Below, one piece after another: positions 7,560-64,000 of a stretch of DNA of 64,000 nt; the stretch's first letter is position 1; every line of letters starts with the position of its first letter. A model generated the notes under the pieces. It was given only the letters and a program-made list of their open reading frames with translations, searched no databases and was not told the origin of the DNA. Source of the DNA: Silicimonas sp. Lineage in GTDB: Bacteria; Pseudomonadota; Alphaproteobacteria; Rhodobacterales; Rhodobacteraceae. The translations under genes were made by a program, and so were the position numbers. The stretch spans positions 1 through 64,000 of the forward strand of contig JABDJO010000127.1 of assembly GCA_013002465.1 (NCBI GenBank), in the 5' to 3' direction.

Positions 7560-8210
7560 CTAAAGGCCCGCTGCCTCCACCGCCTCGACAAGGGTCGTGG
7601 CAACGGCCTGACCAAGGTCAGGCAGGGCCAACCCCGGCGGGCGCAGGTCGGGTATTTGCCAGACCCGGCATCCGGCGGCCACGGCCGCACGCGTGCCAGT
7701 GTCGCTGTCTTCAAAGGCGACACAGTTCGCCGGATCCCGCGCGACCGCCAACGCCCCTTTAAGGTAGGGTTCGGGATGCGGCTTGTTCGACGTCACGCTG
7801 TCGCCGCCGATGACGTCCACAAAGGCCGGAAGAAGACCCACCCGGTCAAGGTGATGCCTGGCGCGGTCCCGGCCCGTTGATGTCACGACCGCCATTGCCA
7901 CGCCTTTCCTTGCCAGCCGGGTCACGGTTTCAAATGCACCGGGGCGAAGTGGTACGCCGGATTCAAGGTGATCTGCGAAACAGGCGTTCCAGCGGCTGTC
8001 CACGGTGTCGGCGTGATCGGGAAACAATTCGGCCAGGCGCGCGCGGGTCTGACCTCCGGACGAGCCGATCAGCGTCAGAAACAGCCCCTCGGCTTCGGGA
8101 GCGCCCATGCCGAAAGGAGCGACCACGTCCTGAAAGGCCCGCAAGGCAACACGTTCGGTATCAAGAAGAAGGCCGTCCATGTCGAAAAGGACGGCCCTGG
8201 GGTTACTCAA
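7560..8210 (-). CDS. HAD-superfamily phosphatase (beta-phosphoglucomutase-like)
   Basis: 216 residues if started at the TTG at 8210, which overlaps the dctD stop as TTGA. A longer frame reaches 8276 but its extra 22 residues read antisense-like inside dctD. Motif I is AVLFDMDGLLLDTE with the nucleophile Asp and acid Asp. Motif II is VVTSTGRD, motif III lies near SNKPHPEPYLKGA and motif IV is CVAFEDSDTGTRAA. The cap is helical as in the PGMB/Gph subfamily. The substrate is unknown; such enzymes hydrolyse small sugar phosphates or phosphoglycolate. Tight coupling to dctBD suggests co-transcription, not necessarily shared function. Confidence 0.85.
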   Translation of the reverse strand: MSNPRAVLFDMDGLLLDTERVALRAFQDVVAPFGMGAPEAEGLFLTLIGSSGGQTRARLAELFPDHADTVDSRWNACFADHLESGVPLRPGAFETVTRLARKGVAMAVVTSTGRDRARHHLDRVGLLPAFVDVIGGDSVTSNKPHPEPYLKGALAVARDPANCVAFEDSDTGTRAAVAAGCRVWQIPDLRPPGLALPDLGQAVATTLVEAVEAAGL

Positions 8211-9562
8211 AGATAATCCGATCTTTGCAACCCGTATTTCGCCATCTTCTCGTTCAGCGTTCGGCGCGGCAGGCAAAGCTCTTCCATGACGTTGACGATG
8301 GAACCGCGATGGCGCCGCATGGTGTTGTCGATCAGCATCCGCTCGAAGTGTTCGACGTATTCCTTCAATGGCTTGCCTTCGGTCGTCACCGTCATTTCGG
8401 CGCTTTCCTCGTTATCGGCCATCAGAAGCGACGCGATGGTGCCCGCCCCGCGGCGCGATTGCAGGACGGCGCGTTCCGCAATATTGACCAATTGGCGAAT
8501 GTTGCCGGGCCATGGGGCCTGAAGAAGTTGCGCGGCCTCCTGGGCCGAAACCTCGGGGGCGTCACAGCCGTATTCGTCGGCGTATTGTTCCGAGAACTGC
8601 TGGAATAGCATCAGGATGTCTTCGCCCCGTTGGCGCAACGGCGGCAGGGTGATCTTCATCGCCGCCAGACGGTAAAACAGGTCGGGCCGCAGCGCATCCT
8701 CGCAGGTTCTTCCGGCCTCTTGCAGGTTGCAGATCGCGACAATGCGGGTTTCGGCGGGCGTGCCCTGTTCGTTCATCCAAGACAGAAGCCGGGCCTGCAA
8801 GGGTTGCGGCAGCGCTTCGATGTCTTCCAGCACCAGGGTGCCGCCACGGGCCTCTTCCAGAAGCGGCAGTTGGCCGCCTTCTTCCATTGGGCCAAAGAGG
8901 CGGGCGGCAAGGGTTTCTTCGTCATGGGCGGCGCAGGAGAACAGGACGAACTTCTTGCCCGCCTTGGCACCGACGGCGTGCAGCGCGTGGGCCACCAGTG
9001 TCTTGCCGGTGCCGGTTTCGCCTTCGATCAGCACATGGCCGTCGGCCTGGCCCAGATCGAGGATGTCCTCGCGCAGGCGCTCCATCACGGGCGAAGCTCC
9101 GATGAGCTTTTGCATCAGGCCCGTGCCGTCGGAAAGTTCGCGCCGCAAGGCCCGGTTGTCGAGCGTCAGGCGGCGCGCGTTCGCGGCCCTTTTCGTAAGC
9201 TCGGTCATCTTGTCGGGGTTGAAGGGTTTTTCGAGGAAATCGAATGCACCCACCTGCATGGCCTCGACCGCCATCGGCACGTCGCCGTGGCCGGTGATCA
9301 TGATCACCGGAAGTGCTGAATCGACGCTCATCAGGCGTTTCAGGAAACCCATGCCGTCCATCCCCGGCATCTTGATGTCGCTGACCACGACACCCGGGAA
9401 ATCCGGCGTGAGCGCTTTCAGCGCATCTTCGGCGCTGCCATAGGTTTCGGTATCAAACCCCGAAAGCGCCAGCCATTGGCTGATTGATTGGCGCATGTCC
9501 TGTTCGTCGTCGACAATGGCGACCTTCATCGTCTGGCTCATCGGTCCAACTCCGTCTGTCAT
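8207..9562 (-). CDS. dctD: DctD-type response regulator, NtrC family, lacking GAFTGA
   Basis: 451 residues: receiver domain (phospho-acceptor D62 in VVVSDIKMPGMDG), AAA+ domain (Walker A GETGTGKT at 181-188, sensor region and RPDLFYRLAAMKITLPPLRQR), and a Fis-type helix-turn-helix near 420-445 (LPRRTLNEKMAKYGL). DctD with DctB activates C4-dicarboxylate uptake genes in rhizobia. The loop that normally carries GAFTGA, the contact to sigma-54, is replaced by LFGPMEEGGQLPLLEEARGG and is about six residues shorter. The Walker B acidic pair reads LVLED instead of the usual LFLDE. It may therefore not work through sigma-54. Its ATG overlaps the dctB stop (ATGA). Confidence 0.92.
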   Translation of the reverse strand: MTDGVGPMSQTMKVAIVDDEQDMRQSISQWLALSGFDTETYGSAEDALKALTPDFPGVVVSDIKMPGMDGMGFLKRLMSVDSALPVIMITGHGDVPMAVEAMQVGAFDFLEKPFNPDKMTELTKRAANARRLTLDNRALRRELSDGTGLMQKLIGASPVMERLREDILDLGQADGHVLIEGETGTGKTLVAHALHAVGAKAGKKFVLFSCAAHDEETLAARLFGPMEEGGQLPLLEEARGGTLVLEDIEALPQPLQARLLSWMNEQGTPAETRIVAICNLQEAGRTCEDALRPDLFYRLAAMKITLPPLRQRGEDILMLFQQFSEQYADEYGCDAPEVSAQEAAQLLQAPWPGNIRQLVNIAERAVLQSRRGAGTIASLLMADNEESAEMTVTTEGKPLKEYVEHFERMLIDNTMRRHRGSIVNVMEELCLPRRTLNEKMAKYGLQRSDYL

Positions 9563-11304
9563 TCTGCTGCCTCGGTGCTTTGCGCCGCAAGCGGCAGGGT
9601 TATTTCGAACACAGCCCCTCCGCTCTGACCGTTTCGCGCGGTCAGGCGACCGCCAAGGTCGTTTACGATCCCGGAGGAAATGGCAAGGCCAAGTCCGACG
9701 CCATCGCCGGGGGCCTTGGTGGTGTAAAAGGGTTCAAAGAGGTTTTCGAGGTCTTCGATTCCGGCCCCGTTGTCACGCACGGTGATCACCACTTCGTTGC
9801 CCACGGTGACCAGAAGTTTCACTTGCCGGTCATTGGACGCCTTGGTGGCGTCAAGAGCATTTCGAAGAAGGTTGACCAGCACCTGTTCCAGGCGGATGCG
9901 ATCGGCTTCGACAATCACCGGATCGCGCGGCAGAGAGGTGGTGATATGGACGTCGCCACGCCGAAGCTGCGGTTCCATCATCGAAAGCGCGGAAGACACG
10001 GAATCCCTTACATCTATGGCTTCAAAGGCATCCCCGCCCTTTCTGGCATAGGATTTCAACTGCCGTGTAATTGCCCCCATGCGTTCGATCAGATCGTCGA
10101 TCCGCTGGAACGAGGAAAGAGCCTCGTCGGGTCGTCGTCGCTGCAACAGAAGCTTGGCCCCGGCGAGGTAGGTCTTCATCGCCGCAAGTGGTTGGTTCAA
10201 CTCGTGACTGACCGCCGCCGACATCTCGCCCAGGGCGGCCAGTTTCGAGCTTTGCTGCAGTGTCTGTTCAGCCACTTCAAGGTGCCTTTCGGCCTTTTCG
10301 CGTTCGGCAATTTCCCGCTGTAGCGCCACGTTAAGCTGGCGGAGTTCAGCCGACTCGCGCTGGAAAAATCTGAGACGCGACGTCGCTTTTCGGCTGACCA
10401 GATAGAACACCAACGCCATGAGAATCGCAAATCCCATGATTTCCAGCGCAAGGACCGAGTTCACCCGTTCCCGCACGCCGGCATAGGTGGTGAACGAAGT
10501 GATGTTCCACCCCTGAAAGCCAATGCGGGATTCCTGGCGCATCACTGCTTCGCCCTGAAGATAGGTATCCGCAGGCAAGGCCCCCCACCGCGCCGTCACG
10601 CGGAACGCCCGTTCAATGGCCGATTGCGCCGGGCGCACTGACAGGGCTTCTTCCTCGGTCAACCCGCGCCAGCGCGCTTCGGTGGAAAGAATAATGGTGC
10701 CTTCGCTATCGGCGACGATGACCGCATCGGTGAAACCGGCCCAGGAGCTTTCGAACTTTTTCAGATCGACCTCGACCATGATGACGCCGATCATCTCGCC
10801 CTGGGCCTCGATCTTGCGTGAATAGGCAAAAACCCGGCCACCCGATTCCAGAAGGCTGGTGGTGAACACGGTGTCATTCGAGCGCGAGGCTTCGACATAA
10901 TAGGGCTCAGCGCGGTGGATCGAGCCAATGAGCGCCCGATCGGTTGCCGCCACGGCGCGACCGTCGCCGTCCATCAGCAAAAGACCTTCGGCCCCGATTT
11001 CGTCGCGGTATTCGATCAACCGGCTGGAGCTTTGGGAAAAATCGCTGGAATTCAGCGCCCCGATCAGGGTCGGATCTCGCGCCAGAAGCTGCGGCACGAT
11101 CTGGTTGCGCTGCAGTTCAGAAAGGATGTTGCCGGAGTAAAGGGCAAGGCGCACTTCGGCGCGCGATTGCGTGGTCTCGGTGAACCGGGCAGTCAGAAAC
11201 TGGTTCGTCCACCAGATCACGATGACCGCCACGACGACAAGAAAGACCATGGCAAGCCGCGCGCGCCATGGCGTTCCGCCGGATTTGAAGGGCGTATCGC
11301 TCAT
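9559..11304 (-). CDS. dctB: C4-dicarboxylate sensor histidine kinase DctB
   Basis: 581 residues. The first membrane segment (about 16-33) and the second (about 285-303) enclose a periplasmic double-PAS/Cache sensor region of about 250 residues, as in DctB. A coiled-coil linker follows (about 310-355). The HisKA box is MSAAVSHELNQPLAAMKTYL with phospho-His near 367; the HATPase part has NLLRNALDATKA, VRDNGAGIEDL and GDGVGLGLAIS. DctB senses external succinate, malate or fumarate. No dctP/Q/M or dctA transporter lies in the window, so the target genes are elsewhere. It is the first gene of the dctB-dctD-HAD run. Confidence 0.95.
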   Translation of the reverse strand: MSDTPFKSGGTPWRARLAMVFLVVVAVIVIWWTNQFLTARFTETTQSRAEVRLALYSGNILSELQRNQIVPQLLARDPTLIGALNSSDFSQSSSRLIEYRDEIGAEGLLLMDGDGRAVAATDRALIGSIHRAEPYYVEASRSNDTVFTTSLLESGGRVFAYSRKIEAQGEMIGVIMVEVDLKKFESSWAGFTDAVIVADSEGTIILSTEARWRGLTEEEALSVRPAQSAIERAFRVTARWGALPADTYLQGEAVMRQESRIGFQGWNITSFTTYAGVRERVNSVLALEIMGFAILMALVFYLVSRKATSRLRFFQRESAELRQLNVALQREIAEREKAERHLEVAEQTLQQSSKLAALGEMSAAVSHELNQPLAAMKTYLAGAKLLLQRRRPDEALSSFQRIDDLIERMGAITRQLKSYARKGGDAFEAIDVRDSVSSALSMMEPQLRRGDVHITTSLPRDPVIVEADRIRLEQVLVNLLRNALDATKASNDRQVKLLVTVGNEVVITVRDNGAGIEDLENLFEPFYTTKAPGDGVGLGLAISSGIVNDLGGRLTARNGQSGGAVFEITLPLAAQSTEAAE

Positions 11305-56605: not shown

Positions 56606-56772
56606 GGGGTCTCCTCTTTTTGGCAAAGGCTAGACTATCGAACGCCGGGTGCAATCGGTGCTTTTTTGTTAACCTCGCGTTGACAGTCACCGGCACTTAT
56701 ATCATCTGACACCGACCATAACCCGCAACCGGGCGTTCCGTGGGCGCCAAACTGACGAGGAGCACGAGCCTG

Positions 56773-58719
56773 ATGGCCCAGATTTCCCTTACTTTTCCCG
56801 ATGGCAATGCACGTGATTTCGCGGCCGGCATCACGCCTGCCGAAGTGGCGGCCGATATTTCAACATCGCTTGGGAAAAAGGCGATCAGCGCGACGGTTGA
56901 CGGCGACCATTGGGATCTTGCCTGGCCGATCGACACGGATGCCTCGATTGCCATTCATACGATGAAGGACGATGCGCCAGCGCTTGAGCTGATCCGCCAT
57001 GATCTGGCGCATATCATGGCGCGCGCGGTGCAAGAGATCTGGCCCGACGTGAAAGTGACGATCGGCCCGGTGATCGAACATGGGTGGTATTATGATTTCG
57101 ACCGCCAAGAGCCGTTCACGCCCGAAGACCTGGGCGCCATCGAAGCCAAGATGAAGGAAATCATCAACGCCCGCGACCCGATCCGCACCGAGGTCTGGGC
57201 GCGTGAGCGTGCGCTTCAACATTACCGGGACAACGGCGAAGACTATAAAGTCGAGCTGGTCGAGGCGATACCCGGCAATGATCCCATCCGCATGTACTGG
57301 CACGGTGACTGGCAGGATCTGTGTCGTGGACCGCACCTTCAGCACACCGGCCAAGTTCCGGCCGATGCCTTCAAACTCATGAGCGTGGCCGGCGCCTATT
57401 GGCGTGGCGACAGCAACCGGGCGATGCTTCAGCGCATCTATGGTGTGGCGTTCAAGAACCGCGACGATCTGAAGAAACACCTGACCATGCTGGAAGAGGC
57501 CGCCAAGCGTGACCATCGTCGGTTGGGACGCGAGATGAACCTCTATCACATGCAGGAAGAGGCGCCGGGCCAGATATTCTGGCACCCGAACGGCTGGACC
57601 TTGTATGTCACGCTCCAGGATTTCATGCGACGGCAGCAGCGGGCTGGTGGATACCAGGAAATCAACACGCCCCAGGTCCTGAACCGGACTTTCTGGGAAA
57701 AGTCGGGACATTGGGAAAACTACGGCGACCACATGTTTGTGGTCGAGGTGGAAGAGGAACACGCCAAGGAAAAGGCCATCAACGCCCTGAAGCCGATGAA
57801 TTGCCCCTGCCATGTTCAGGTCTTCAATCAGGGCATTCGCAGTTACCGCGAATTGCCCTTGCGTCTGGCCGAGTTTGGATCGTGTTCACGCTATGAACCT
57901 TCAGGCGCGCTTCATGGGTTGATGCGGGTTCGCGGTTTCACGCAGGACGACGGGCATATCTTCTGCACCGCCGAGCAGATCGAATCCGAGTGTGTGCGGT
58001 TCGTTAATTATCTGGACGGAGTGTATCGCGATCTTGGATTTGAAACCTTCGACATCAAATTCGCAACCCGGCCCGAAAAACGGGTCGGCGCCGACGAGGT
58101 TTGGGATCATGCCGAAACGGCGTTGGAGAATGCGGTCAAGGCCACCGGGCGCCCATACGAATTGGAGCCGGGGGACGGCGCTTTTTATGGCCCGAAGCTG
58201 GATTTCTATCTGACCGATGCGATTGGCCGCGTCTGGCAGTGCGGGACGTTTCAAGTCGACCCCAACCTTCCGGAACGTCTGGGCGCGGAATACGTTGGCG
58301 ATGACGGCTCCAAGCATCGGCCCTTCATGCTCCATCGGGCGTGCCTTGGCAGCTTTGAACGCTTTCTGGGCATTCTGATCGAAAACCACGCAGGGCGGTT
58401 TCCCTTGTGGCTGGCGCCCCGGCAAGTTGTCGTCGCCGCGATCACCTCGGACTCTGATGCCCAGGTCGAAGCAATCGTTGAAACCCTGTGCGATGCCGGT
58501 GTCAGGGCCGAAGCCGACATCCGGAACGAGAAGATCAATTATAAGATCCGCGAACACTCCGTGGCCAAGGTTCCCGTGATCCTGGCCATCGGGCAGCGCG
58601 AGGTTGATGAAGGCACAGCGACGGTCAGGCGATTGGGCAATAAGGCGACCGAGACAGTGCCCCTTGAGACGATCATCAAGGATCTGACCGCAGAAGCGAC
58701 ACCGCCCGATCTGCGATGA
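56773..58719 (+). CDS. thrS: Threonyl-tRNA synthetase
   Basis: 648 residues from the ATG at 56773, with gaggag 12 bases ahead. The TGS domain (1-62: [20 protein letters not shown]) is followed by the editing domain ([19 protein letters not shown] with the H-x3-H motif, and [15 protein letters not shown]). The class II core has the zinc Cys in [13 protein letters not shown], plus [20 protein letters not shown] and DDGHIFC. The anticodon-binding domain is at the end. It charges tRNA-Thr. Length is typical. A TTGACA (-35-like) lies at 56680-56685, without a good -10 at standard spacing. Confidence 0.97.
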
Positions 58720-58801: not shown

Positions 58802-60349
58802 TCAGGCCGCTGGCGCGTTTGGCATGTTCGAGTAAGTCACGTCTTCCAGCCAGTCCAGTGCAGGGCGGGGGTGCCCGAACAGGTATCCCTGCCCTTTCCT
58901 GCATCCAAGCTCTGACAGCAGTCTTGCCTGGCTCTGACGCTCGATCCCACCAATCAACACCTCAAGCCCCAGTCGCTCTGCAAGGCCCAGAACTGCCGTC
59001 AGGATGATCCGCGCCTCCTCGCTCTGGTCGGTTCGGTCGACCAAGGAGCGTTCGATATTGATTTGATCCGCTGGCAGATCGCGCAAGTGGGAAAGCGAGG
59101 CGTATCCGCTTCCGAAGTCGTCGATGGCAACCTTACAGCCGAATTCCTTCAACCGGATGAGCGAGGGACAACAGCCATGGGCGGACTCCAACGAAACGGT
59201 TTCGGTGATTTCGACGGTCAGCAATTCAGGCGGCATTTTGTGGCGACGAAGGCAATCCGCCACGAAATCCGCGCCGCTTTCCCGCCGCAGATGCAAGGCC
59301 GACATGTTGACACTGAGCGAAAACGCGGTCTTCCGGCGACGGTTCCAGTCGGCAACAATCTCGATTGCGCGATCCATCATATAGCGATCAAGATCAATTA
59401 CCTGCCCAGTCTCTTCGGCCGTGGCGACCAAATCCACGGCAGGCACATAATCACCGCCGCGCGACCAACGCACCAATGCTTCGAACCCGAAGATTGTTCC
59501 GTCGTCAAGATTGACGCGCGGCTGCAAAAAAACCTCCAATTCGCGATTGCGCAATGCACCAGGCAATTCTTCCACCATGGCATCACGGTCAACGTACTTC
59601 GCTTCAAGCGACGTGTCATAGACCCGAAACAATTGCCCGCTTGAACGGGCGGCGAACAAAGTGAATTTGCCCATGCGCAGGATGTCGTCGTATCCGATCC
59701 GTTCCGAGTCATTCAACTGCGAGATGTCCACCGCGCCAATCCAAACACGAGGTGTCAGGGTTTCGCCGCCCTTTGAAACGGGGGCGGCGCAGATCGCGGA
59801 TAACCGCTCGCAGAAATCCGCCAGTTCGCCACCCCTGACGCGTGGCAACAAGACACCAAATCTGTCGCCCCCCACGCGCGCCGCAAATCCGCCAGCTTCT
59901 TCCGCCATCGCCCGGATGCGGTGCGCCAGTTCCTTGATCAAGGCGTCTGCAAATGCCCGGCCACGGCGTGTGTTGACCTCTCTTGTGCCAGCGATGTCGA
60001 CAAAGATGATCGCTGCATCACATCCGGCGGTCATCGTCACGGTGACCTTGTCCTGAAATCTTGTCGCGTTCGCGATTCCGGTCATTGGATCGAAAGACAA
60101 AGATGCGGCCCAGGGCGCGGCGACACTGCGCCGCCTTCGAAGCACTGCAATGGTGCGGCGATGCAAAAGCAACAACGCGATACATCCCCCCGAGGTCGCC
60201 GTCAGGGCCAGTGATCGCCAATCAAACCCGACACTGGCGGAGAATTCCATCAAAGCCCGAGCCAAAACAGCGGACAACGCGGCAATGGCAACGACCATCA
60301 CACGTATGGAAACAAGAACACGAGACAGGGCGATAACATCCTTATGCAC
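58802..60349 (-). CDS. GGDEF/EAL protein with lost catalytic residues
   Basis: 515 residues from a GTG at 60349. Two N-terminal membrane helices (about 12-35 and 47-62) lead to a GGDEF domain (about 85-245) whose signature is GGDRF instead of GG(D/E)EF, so no cyclase activity is expected. In the EAL domain (about 255-505), E290 of FGFEALVRW, N348, E380/E383 (VEITET), D410/D411 (AIDDFGSGYASL) and Q487 are kept. The catalytic Lys (LKID) reads INIE (N431) and the first Glu of EGVE reads GGIE (G467). It is probably a c-di-GMP-binding or signalling pseudoenzyme. Confidence 0.85.
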   Translation of the reverse strand: MHKDVIALSRVLVSIRVMVVAIAALSAVLARALMEFSASVGFDWRSLALTATSGGCIALLLLHRRTIAVLRRRRSVAAPWAASLSFDPMTGIANATRFQDKVTVTMTAGCDAAIIFVDIAGTREVNTRRGRAFADALIKELAHRIRAMAEEAGGFAARVGGDRFGVLLPRVRGGELADFCERLSAICAAPVSKGGETLTPRVWIGAVDISQLNDSERIGYDDILRMGKFTLFAARSSGQLFRVYDTSLEAKYVDRDAMVEELPGALRNRELEVFLQPRVNLDDGTIFGFEALVRWSRGGDYVPAVDLVATAEETGQVIDLDRYMMDRAIEIVADWNRRRKTAFSLSVNMSALHLRRESGADFVADCLRRHKMPPELLTVEITETVSLESAHGCCPSLIRLKEFGCKVAIDDFGSGYASLSHLRDLPADQINIERSLVDRTDQSEEARIILTAVLGLAERLGLEVLIGGIERQSQARLLSELGCRKGQGYLFGHPRPALDWLEDVTYSNMPNAPAA

Positions 60350-60553
60350 GTTCGATTTGCGCTTAACACCTTGGGCTTAGGCGAACGGTGCTAAGGATCG
60401 GTGAAGCAATACACCCTTTTGTTTCAATTTCTAACGACCGCGTTAAACACGGAGCCGTGAATGGAATGTCATGACGATTTCAGCTTTCTATGTGCCAGCC
60501 GCCAATTTGGTGGCGATGAATTTTGTTTGCTACAAACACGAGGACTGAACCTG

Positions 60554-60862
60554 ATGTCGAACAAGACCAAAACCCTTGCCGTTGCAGGCGCTGTTGCTGC
60601 TGCTCTTTCCGCCACCATGACTGTTCCGGCTCACGCCCAGGCAAAAGAGAAATGCTTTGGCGTGTCTCTGGCCGGCAAGAACGACTGTGCCGCCGGCCCG
60701 GGCACCACTTGCGCCGGAACATCGACCGTGGATTACCAGGGCAATGCCTGGACCCTGGTCGACGCTGGCACGTGCGCGGAAATCGAATTGCCCGAAATGG
60801 CTGATGGATCGGCTCGCATGGGTTCGCTCGAAGCGATCGAGCGCGACCTGCCTCAGGGCTAA
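60554..60862 (+). CDS. bufA1: Bufferin-type precursor BufA1 (DUF2282)
   Basis: 102 residues from the ATG at 60554. Signal peptide 1-28 ends VPAHAQA. The core reads [38 protein letters not shown] and AGTCAE, with Cys at 34, 45, 53 and 74, the DUF2282/BufA1 pattern (EKC.GV..AGKNDCA...CAGTS...GTC). Bufferins are exported RiPPs whose cysteines are converted by a DUF692/MNIO enzyme (gene at 60927) to copper-binding heterocycles, described in Caulobacter. Unusually the last Cys is followed by a 28-residue acidic tail. A terminator-like hairpin separates it from bufB. Confidence 0.88.
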
Positions 60863-60878
60863 ATCCCTGTCTTTTTAG

Positions 60879-60912
60879 TGGCGCCTCCGTTATCCTCGGG
60901 GGCGCCATTTTT
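60879..60912 (+). terminator. Strong hairpin between bufA1 and bufB
   Basis: Stem ggcgcctccg (60880-60889) with cgggggcgcc (60897-60906), 10 bp with one G-U pair plus an outer T-A pair, loop of seven bases, then ttttt (60908-60912). It lies 17 bases after the bufA1 stop and 14 before the bufB ATG, so it should give excess precursor message with partial read-through. Confidence 0.82.
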
Positions 60913-60926
60913 ATGAGGCCCGCCTG

Positions 60927-61787
60927 ATGCTGGATGCGTCCAACCACCAATTTGACCGCCTGCCAAACAAGCCTGGCGTGGGGTACAAACCGCAGCATTT
61001 CACTGCCATCACAGAGAACGCCGGTGCGGTTGAGTGGCTTGAAATTCATGCGGAAAACTACATGGGCGACGGCGGTCGGCCAATTGCGCAGCTGCGCCAT
61101 CTTGCCGAGCGATTCGCGTTCTCGGTCCATGGCGTTGGCCTGTCCATCGGGGGCGAGGGCCCACTTGACCCCGACCATCTGGCGCGTTTGAAACACCTGG
61201 TCGGCTGGCTCAATCCGGCCAGCTTTTCTGAACACCTGGCCTGGTCGACCCACGAGTCGGCGTTTCTGAACGACCTTTTGCCCCTGCCCTATACCGAATC
61301 GACACTGGCCCGCGTTGCGGACCATATCGACGAGTTGCAGGACACAGTCGGGCGACAAATGCTGCTGGAAAACCCGTCGTCTTACCTTGCCTTCGAAGAG
61401 AGCACTCTGGACGAGACCGAGTTCTTGCGGGAGGTGGCAGATCGCACTGGCTGCGGGCTGCTTTTGGATGTGAACAACGTTTTTGTCAGCGCCACCAATC
61501 TCGACACCGATCCAAGGTCGTATATCGACGCCTTTCCCCTTGATCTGGTTCAGGAAATTCACCTTGGCGGCCATGATGAAGACAAAGACGATCACGGTGC
61601 CCCCTTGCTGATCGACAGCCATGGCCGCGAGATTGCCGACCCGGTTTGGGCGCTTTTCGAATATACCATCCGCCGAGGTGGCGCGCGTCCAACCCTGATA
61701 GAATGGGATAACGATGTGCCCGAATGGCCCATGCTTGAGGCCGAAGCGCAACGCGCCGCGACCATGCTGGAGACAGCAATCACATGA
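60927..61787 (+). CDS. bufB: Multinuclear non-heme iron oxidase BufB (DUF692/MNIO)
   Basis: 286 residues, TIM-barrel DUF692. Conserved metal-site segments in order: [86 protein letters not shown] and [14 protein letters not shown] enzymes use two or three irons and oxygen to remodel Cys in a RiPP precursor; with a DUF2282 partner they make bufferin thiooxazoles. The gene is followed directly by its usual partner, with an ATGA overlap. The start at 60927 follows gagg. Confidence 0.93.
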
Positions 61788-62533
61788 GCGTCACCCAGAC
61801 CCCGTTTCGCGTGGCCGTGCTTGATCCTGATGCCGAACGCCCGTCTGGCCTGAAAGACGGACAGGGCCGTGCTGCCGGACGACGTTTTGACGTCTATCGC
61901 AACAATGTCGCGGTTTCGCTGTCCGAAGCGCTGGAAGCGGCGTTTCCCGTCATCCGTAAGCTGGTTGGTGAGGAAAATTTCAAGATTTTGGCGTCGGCGT
62001 TTCTGCGGGCCCACCCGCCATGCACGCCGCTGATGATGTTCTATGGCGCTGAAATGCCTGAGTTTTTGGGTGACTTTGGCCCAACTAGGGGCACCGGATA
62101 CCTTTCGGATGTGGCGCGGCTGGAATTGGCCTTGCGCGAAAGCTATCACGCGGCAGACGCCGATCCGGTGGACCCGACGGCGCTACAGGCGCTTCCTGCA
62201 GAAGACCTGATGCAAAGCACGATCACCCTTGCCCCTTCTGTCAGAGTGATCCGTTCCGAATGGCCGGTCTATTCGATCTGGCGCTACAATACCGAGGCTG
62301 ATGCACCAAAGCCCGTCATGGCTGCCGAAGACGTATTGATTGCGCGCCCCGAGCTTGACCCGGCCCCACATCTGCTACCTTCTGGTGGTGGCACTTTCGT
62401 GGCCGCCTTGTCGGATGGCCAGCTTTTCGGGGCGGCGGTCGAAATCGCCACAAATGCAAGCGAAACCTTCGATCTTGGCGCCGTTCTGGCACTGTTGATC
62501 GAAACCGAAGCCATGACCAAGATCGGAGATTAA
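61784..62533 (+). CDS. bufC: DUF2063 partner protein BufC
   Basis: 249 residues, DUF2063 (putative DNA-binding) family, the standard RiPP partner of MNIO enzymes. The N-terminal helical part has [28 protein letters not shown] (residues about 27-54, the family signature YRNN...L...FP...LVG) and [20 protein letters not shown]. The C-terminal part is a beta-rich domain ([17 protein letters not shown]) that is thought to present the precursor to the oxidase. Overlaps bufB by ATGA and lies six bases ahead of the DoxX gene. Confidence 0.9.
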
Positions 62534-62539
62534 TTCCAC

Positions 62540-63142
62540 ATGATCCGCGCCTTTTTGAACCTGCCCAACCGTCTGATTGCCTGGGTCGAACCCGCTTCGG
62601 TGCCTGTCCTGACGACGCTTGCCCGACTGGTATTCGCTGCCGTTTTGCTGATGTACTTCTGGAATTCCGGCCTGACCAAGCTGCCCGAAGGCATGAAGAC
62701 GTTTCTGGACGGCGGCGATATCGGTCTGGTGGATGCCCTGAAAAGCCTTTTGTCACCGACATTTAACGCGTTTGGCCAGATCTTTCCCAAAGGGGCGGAA
62801 GCAGCCAGCTATGACATCACCCAAGCCACCCAGTTTCAGAAGATCGTCATTGTCGCCGGTACATTGGCCGAGTTCATTCTGCCGGCGCTTGTGGTCATCG
62901 GGCTTTGGACACGGGCGGCCGCTTTGGGCATGGTCGTCTTCGTGGTGGTCCAAAGCCTGACCGACATTTACGGGCACGGCGGCGAACCTGGCGCCTGGTT
63001 CGACAAAGCGTCGGATGCATTGATCCTGGACCAACGCGCCTTCTGGGTATTTCTGCTTCTTTACCTGGTTTTCCGCGGCGGCGGCCCGATTTCACTCGAC
63101 CGTTTCCTGGCGCCTTACGAGCCCGTCTACGAAGACTATTAG
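62540..63142 (+). CDS. DoxX-family membrane protein (BufD-like)
   Basis: 200 residues with four membrane segments. LARLVFAAVLLMYFWNSGLT, FQKIVIVAGTLAEFILPALV and LWTRAAALGMVVFVVVQSLTD are the DoxX pattern. DoxX proteins often close MNIO/bufferin operons and are thought to help in thiol or quinone redox chemistry at the membrane. It starts six bases after bufC and is the last gene of the cluster. The stop is five bases from the convergent membrane protein gene. Confidence 0.87.
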   Translation: MIRAFLNLPNRLIAWVEPASVPVLTTLARLVFAAVLLMYFWNSGLTKLPEGMKTFLDGGDIGLVDALKSLLSPTFNAFGQIFPKGAEAASYDITQATQFQKIVIVAGTLAEFILPALVVIGLWTRAAALGMVVFVVVQSLTDIYGHGGEPGAWFDKASDALILDQRAFWVFLLLYLVFRGGGPISLDRFLAPYEPVYEDY

Positions 63143-63559: not shown

Positions 63560-63889
63560 TTATCCAAGGTGTCGATCCTTTGCCGTCTTGTCCCATCCCA
63601 GTGTCAATGCACCGCCATCTTCAATCACAGGACGTTTCATCAGTGTGGGATGACGCGCGATCAATGTTTCAGGGGTGCCGATCCGTTCCGCTTCCGAGAG
63701 GTTGCGCCATGTCGTTGAACGGCGGTTGACCAGTGCGCCACTAAATTCCGCGACAAACCTTGCCAGTTGGTCCTGAGACAGGGGGTTTTTTCGAACATCC
63801 TGAAATACGACTGTTCTTCCAGAGTTTTCGATCTGCTTTCTGGCTAGTCGGCAAGTATCACAGGTCGTCAATCCATAAAGTGTAAGCAT
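63560..63889 (-). CDS. ArsC/Spx-family (YffB-like) reductase-like protein
   Basis: 109 residues from the ATG at 63889 (MLTLYGLTTCDTCRLARKQI). Thioredoxin-like ArsC fold with C-x-x-C (TTCDTCR) at residues 10-13, VVFQDVRKNPLSQDQLARFV, and the family end HPTLMKRPVIEDGGALTLGW. It fits the Spx/YffB branch rather than true arsenate reductase, because the Cys context is CxxC and length is short. Role is unknown, perhaps thiol-disulfide exchange or glutathione-dependent reduction. Nothing is recognised in the remaining 111 bases to the window end. Confidence 0.87.
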   Translation of the reverse strand: MLTLYGLTTCDTCRLARKQIENSGRTVVFQDVRKNPLSQDQLARFVAEFSGALVNRRSTTWRNLSEAERIGTPETLIARHPTLMKRPVIEDGGALTLGWDKTAKDRHLG

Positions 63890-64000
63890 CACCTGCCTCG
63901 CATGAATCATTGAGGTTTTCCTTGTGTTTTTCGGAAAATTCCCCAGACTTCTATCCGCAACAGACGTCAAACCGGCTGCCGTTTCAACGGCATTCTTACG

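Follow-up and report, generated by a model that had tools for sequence, protein, structure and literature searches.

A Buf1 bufferin operon of Silicimonas sp. with what seems a family-wide variant of control region and precursor tail

A four-gene cluster of Silicimonas sp. (Rhodobacteraceae; contig JABDJO010000127.1) raises the question of how a bufferin-type peptide is made and, above all, switched in a roseobacter. The cluster occupies positions 60554-63142 of the window, a stretch of 64,000 nucleotides, and a sequence-only reading had taken it for a complete bufferin-type cluster and left its regulation open. Judged by its sequence, the region is a complete Buf1 bufferin operon. Its gene content is ordinary and very common, and the peptide system is already known. 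What seems new is how the operon is controlled and how the precursor ends, features that appear to form a family-wide variant; the titles and abstract openings searched in the bufferin literature, a scope outside which most subscription journals fell, held no description of this control region, of the hairpin behind the precursor gene, or of the tail.

All four genes are intact, lie on the plus strand where the sequence-only reading had placed them, and follow the standard bufferin order. They are bufA (60554..60862; Buf1 bufferin precursor, 102 aa), bufB (60927..61787; MNIO [DUF692] maturase, 286 aa), bufC (61784..62533; DUF2063 partner, PME type 1, 249 aa), and a gene for a DoxX-family membrane protein (62540..63142; 200 aa). 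In the profile search that had been proposed as a check, all four proteins scored above cut-off. The protein encoded at 60554, whose failure to match the DUF2282 profile had been named as grounds for rejecting the assignment, reached 85.7 bits against PF10048 (cut-off, 22.4), so that the assignment stands. BufB scored 341.7 bits against PF05114 (cut-off, 25) and also passed the NCBIfam equivalog NF050167 (MNIO_BufB) with 372.1 bits (cut-off, 310); its nearest solved sequence is 3bww (E value, 1.3e-45). The earlier reading had pointed to conserved His, Asp, and Glu segments in this enzyme, and 12 BufB residues (H68, H84, E102, H103, H109, D116, H133, E148, N149, D181, N183, and N184) are indeed kept in 84 of 84 family loci, with 5 more (H212, D230, H232, E259, and D261) kept in 83. 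BufC directly follows the MNIO gene, with the described ATGA overlap at 61784-61787, and scored 86.2 bits against PF09836 (DUF2063; cut-off, 27.2), while it stayed below the cut-off of the HvfC model NF050145 (48.6 bits; cut-off, 142). The match of the DoxX protein to PF07681 is marginal (24.1 bits; cut-off, 23.6), and its score with the HvfX model NF050144 lies below cut-off (21.8 bits; cut-off, 80). Gene order, the BufB equivalog, and the partner match the published Buf1 cluster as it appears in excerpts of PMC12452194, which supports the bufferin-type reading.

A thrS-like gene (56740-58719) and a GGDEF/EAL-like gene on the strand opposite to bufA (58802-60349), both named by eye, lie upstream of the operon, and a small ArsC-family protein is encoded behind it on the minus strand (63560-63970; PF03960, 41.5 bits). 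By a crude clustering of flanking open reading frames (ORFs), a thrS cluster lies upstream of bufA in 52 of 84 family loci and an ArsC-like cluster downstream of the operon in 26 of 84.

Of the 120 genera sampled from the family, 85 (the window genome counted) have a DUF2282 gene. The window assembly has a single DUF2282 gene and a single MNIO gene. The neighbors at these 85 loci are bufB in 85, bufC in 83, and DoxX in 79, counts in which a locus cut by a contig end (L044) figures as having neither bufC nor DoxX. Leaving out L116, where bufA is cut by the contig start, gives the set of 84 family loci. A set from named genomes started from the best 80 loci, of which 79 were scored (L232 has too short an upstream region) and 71 were retained once 8 exact duplicates had been removed; nearly all of the 71 belong to the same family as the 84. 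A class-wide profile search found DUF2282 in 47 of 142 genomes. Loci were taken from 30 of these 47, one being the window's own, and 28 of the 29 new ones were scored (L258 was dropped); without L250, which is of the same family, 27 loci outside the family remain. On a wider scale, about half of the reference genomes of Pseudomonadota contain a cluster of an MNIO plus a partner, according to excerpts of PMC13097082.

The N terminus of BufA shows, by eye, the charged, hydrophobic, and A-H-A parts of a Sec-like signal. Its translation has cysteines at 34, 45, 53, and 74, as the earlier reading had noted, and none of the four columns varies across the 84 aligned family loci. With 15.9 bits against the BufA2 model NF050166 (cut-off, 60), BufA is not of the Buf2 type. 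The precursor ends in a C-terminal tail, GSLExLxRDLPx (residues 90 to 102). Over the 84 loci, mean column identity is 0.87 in the core and 0.79 in the tail (90 to 101), versus 0.61 in both the linker (77 to 89) and the signal. Of the 71 named loci, 70 have the form RD[LIM]P, which outside the family is confined to 2 of 27; among the 84 family loci, 74 have the looser form RD[LIMR]P. The same-family locus of the class-wide set, L250, has both this tail and the upstream operator described below. On these alignments the tail is typical of the family, and one might guess that it serves the maturation enzymes as a follower or as a signal for processing. Two loci (L051 and L079, in genomes G007 and G099) carry two bufA copies ahead of bufB. 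G099 has a perfect operator match upstream of the first copy, and BufB of L079 is split across two ORFs, perhaps by a frameshift.

Upstream of bufA, much of the family has two palindromes 15 bp apart, with the consensus TnACG-N4-CGTGA-N2-CACG-N4-CGTGA-n-TGG. In the window this candidate operator lies on the plus strand at 60432-60464, in the presumed -35 region of bufA, and reads TAACG-N4-CGTTA plus CACG-N4-CGTGA, then ATGG, with one half-site deviating as CGTTA instead of CGTGA. It scores 39.0 bits with the position weight matrix, versus 4.0 bits for its own opposite strand and 2.9 bits for the next-best separate site of the 64-kb window. An operator above 20 bits was found in 57 of the 84 family loci, the same loci on which the matrix was trained (the final matrix comes from 58 sites above 8 bits, L047 included), and the maximum over 1,680 Markov-shuffled upstream sequences was 4.9 bits. 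It was also found in 56 of the 71 nonduplicate named loci derived from the best 80, Ruegeria pomeroyi (L184; 35.2 bits) included; the 15 misses count L181, which has no upstream DNA. None of the 27 loci outside the family in the class-wide set has it. One further operator-like site with one mismatch was seen in L076 (G063:C9:6219-6251), downstream of bufA and before bufB, at a locus whose upstream operator scores 26.1 bits.

With up to three mismatches allowed, the window genome contains a single match, the bufA site itself, with one mismatch. The 120 family genomes contain 83 such sites, versus 16 for the pattern read backwards. Fifty-five of these 83 are no more than 700 bp from bufA, as are 38 of the 39 found with up to two mismatches. 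Since 27 of the 28 sites away from bufA have three mismatches and the backward pattern yields 16 matches, the distant three-mismatch sites are close to chance. A negative control with an N3 spacer in place of N4 gave no site in the window's own genome and one each in 6 of the 120. At the level of nucleotide conservation, the upstream element is conserved and nearly confined to bufA. A TAnnnT hexamer stands 37 or 38 bases past the start of the core in 35 of the 57 operator loci, which, on the assumption of the usual 17-bp spacer, places the operator immediately at the upstream border of the -35 region, a frequent binding place of activators. In the window itself, TAnnnT is absent at 37 to 38 bases past the core start, and a sigma-70 consensus scan of 60350-60950 returned no promoter. 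Among the flanking ORF clusters at the 84 loci (those in at least 3 loci, named by eye), no common regulator gene beside the operon emerged, in a clustering that can miss genes because wrong frames are often picked.

The question of regulation that the earlier reading had left open is therefore answered in part: a conserved, bufferin-specific element is present upstream, and signs of the SigF-NrsF pair are not. This pair, the only switch of a bufferin cluster met in the literature covered, governs the homologous Caulobacter cluster, which is SigF driven, NrsF held, and copper induced in excerpts of PMC8224329; SigF promoters there read GTAACC-N16-CGAA, by an excerpt of PMC3511200. The same control could operate here if the draft assembly had lost the sigma pair. 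Seventeen of the 120 family genomes encode NrsF, and as the window assembly is 93% complete, NrsF might be missing from it. Nevertheless, a search of the assembly for NrsF gave no match while the Caulobacter control was positive, so that the switch is apparently absent. No match to the SigF consensus with up to two mismatches lies between 59117 and 62075, and the 44 matches across the window equal chance (44.4 expected). Moreover, the family itself sets NrsF apart from the operator. Fourteen of the 17 NrsF genomes have a bufA locus, within about 3 kb of NrsF in 12 of them, and none of these 14 loci has the operator (best score, 10.4 bits in L047). The SigF consensus begins with GTAAC, and this string stands within 130 nt upstream in 12 of the 14 NrsF loci, 7 of the 57 operator loci, and 1 of the 13 of 84 loci with neither operator nor NrsF. 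We therefore regard control of this operon by SigF-NrsF as very unlikely. A membrane-protein cluster in the flanks of 4 loci fits NrsF matches by position. A quick BufB tree, in which 7 of 81 inner branches are starred, groups 12 NrsF loci together, places L041 among the operator loci, and sets L098 at their base. The split, with 8 and 3 changes on this tree, runs mostly along one clade boundary; as the tree is weakly supported and a test on independent pairs had no power, the mutual exclusion does not count as many times independent. The distribution is suggestive of two alternative regimes, operator and NrsF.

Ordinary copper export offers another candidate regulator. The absence of CueR and of a copper ATPase nearby, remarked on by the earlier reading, holds for the operon's own contig, all profile matches being on other contigs. 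A CueR gene and a copper ATPase gene, both above cut-off, adjoin on contig C131 (about 7859-10122; G000), a second copper ATPase above cut-off is on contig C12, and ordinary copper export is accordingly present elsewhere in the genome, with the C131 pair likely the main export unit. Were the upstream element a CueR site, the operon would belong to the regulon of this protein. The copA promoter, however, carries an inverted repeat that by eye reads CCCTC...GAGGG and differs from the element at bufA. The operator matrix found no site in the 14-kb copA region (best score, -0.1 bits), and the sole genome match to the operator pattern is at bufA. CueR control is hence extremely improbable, and a putative activator at the tandem palindromes remains the preferred reading.

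The gap between bufA and bufB contains a second conserved feature. In the window, a hairpin at 60877..60909 on the plus strand (fold of 60855-60926; -33.3 kcal/mol; z score, -3.70) ends 17 nt ahead of the bufB start and is followed by T. Across the family, a hairpin exceeding the 95th percentile of shuffles occurs in the 75 nt past bufA at 75 of 84 loci (median score, 30 versus 15); the two control regions gave 1 of 84 (within the bufB coding sequence) and 5 of 84 (farther upstream). Its sequence varies between loci. It is common to operator loci (51 of 57) and NrsF loci (14 of 14), and also occurs in 10 of the 13 loci with neither, so it does not belong to the operator regime. An equally strong hairpin was found in 11 of the 27 loci outside the family. 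A candidate stem-loop in the bufA 5' leader (60498-60514) was rejected, with 8 of 84 loci above the 95th percentile, 5 of 84 in the control, and a z score of -1.31 in the window, even though the terminator scan lists it as terminator-like. Three Rfam matches (E values, 0.51 to 0.81) fell far below gathering scores and are attributed to chance.

The hairpin might be a full terminator, with bufBC transcribed from a promoter of their own. In the window, T follows the GC stem (TTTTTATG), a small hairpin with a T-run covers the bufA stop codon (60854-60869) just ahead of the main one, and hairpins are terminator-like in 23 of 84 loci, versus 10 of 252 shuffles. The main hairpin of the window is itself absent from the three terminator-like sites of the scan. 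Only 15 of the 71 loci with a hairpin and a located bufB start are T-rich downstream, which means that simple termination is no general rule; the gap to bufB, 17 nt in the window and below 35 nt in 49 of these 71, leaves little room for a promoter, and no promoter-like site appears in 60350-60950. Complete termination is thus quite improbable, and the short gap together with the few T-rich cases makes it most likely that bufBC are read through the hairpin. Trimming or protection of the mRNA is a more likely role than simple termination. The hairpin between pufA and pufL of Rhodobacter reportedly trims or protects mRNA in an analogous way.

By analogy with published relatives, BufB would oxidize BufA cysteines to 5-thiooxazoles, with BufC presenting the substrate. 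The modified residues would most likely be the central pair, Cys45 and Cys53, and the outer pair, Cys34 and Cys74, would form a disulfide; excerpts of PMC12452194 report this arrangement of modified central and disulfide-bonded outer cysteines for Buf1. In the related fontiphorin, each thiooxazole costs four hydrogens (PMC13097082, in excerpt). Sec would then export the peptide, which may bind excess copper in the periplasm, as bufferins are reported to do (PMC12452194, in excerpt). Both the thiooxazoles and the copper role proposed for this BufA derive from those relatives. The peptide could instead serve mainly another metal or stress, given that the Caulobacter SigF regulon responds also to chromate and cadmium (excerpts of PMC3511200 and PMC8224329) and that fusions of MerC with bufferins exist (PMC12452194, in excerpt). 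Against this, the sequestration reported for bufferins is of copper, and a Caulobacter sigF mutant is copper sensitive (PMC8224329, in excerpt); a main role other than copper is unlikely.

In the preferred mechanism, the operon would be switched by a putative activator that responds to a presumed signal and binds the tandem TcACG-N4-CGTGA at the -35 region, a site picked out by its conservation. The hairpin behind bufA would pass only part of the transcription, or of the mRNA, on to bufBC and so yield much precursor and little enzyme. This proposal as a whole, a Buf1 operon with a candidate activator at the tandem palindromes and hairpin-limited expression of bufBC, appears probable to us. A broader version is tentative, and on balance we lean slightly against it: the roseobacter family would have swapped SigF-NrsF for a dedicated activator with about one target, the hairpin would set a high precursor-to-enzyme ratio, and the tail would be a follower or processing signal. 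A site so nearly confined to bufA offers bait for a regulator of marine roseobacters that would be new and might sense metal, and the hairpin between the two genes lets the balance of precursor and enzyme be tested directly.

Among known systems, the EGKCG-type captophorins (fontiphorin, oxazolin, and gonophorin) likewise combine an MNIO with a DUF2063 partner, and 5-thiooxazole chemistry is proposed for the whole captophorin class in excerpts of PMC13097082; the window precursor, in contrast, is a DUF2282 protein with four cysteines and no EGKCG repeats. Related by description are the GIG operons of Cupriavidus and Legionella. The Cupriavidus operon is named as the counterpart of the Caulobacter cluster, and gold, silver, and copper induce it (PMC8224329, in excerpt); that of Legionella responds to copper and gold (PMC5413113). 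The Caulobacter cluster CCNA_03363-03366 (Buf1) has a precursor with four cysteines, an MNIO, a gene in the position of the partner, and DoxX, arranged as in the window, its third gene being annotated "hypothetical protein" in the excerpted table of PMC8224329. Unlike that cluster, the Silicimonas operon comes without NrsF in the assembly and without a SigF-consensus promoter, and has in turn a tandem-palindrome operator and a precursor that ends in the GSLExLxRDLPx tail.
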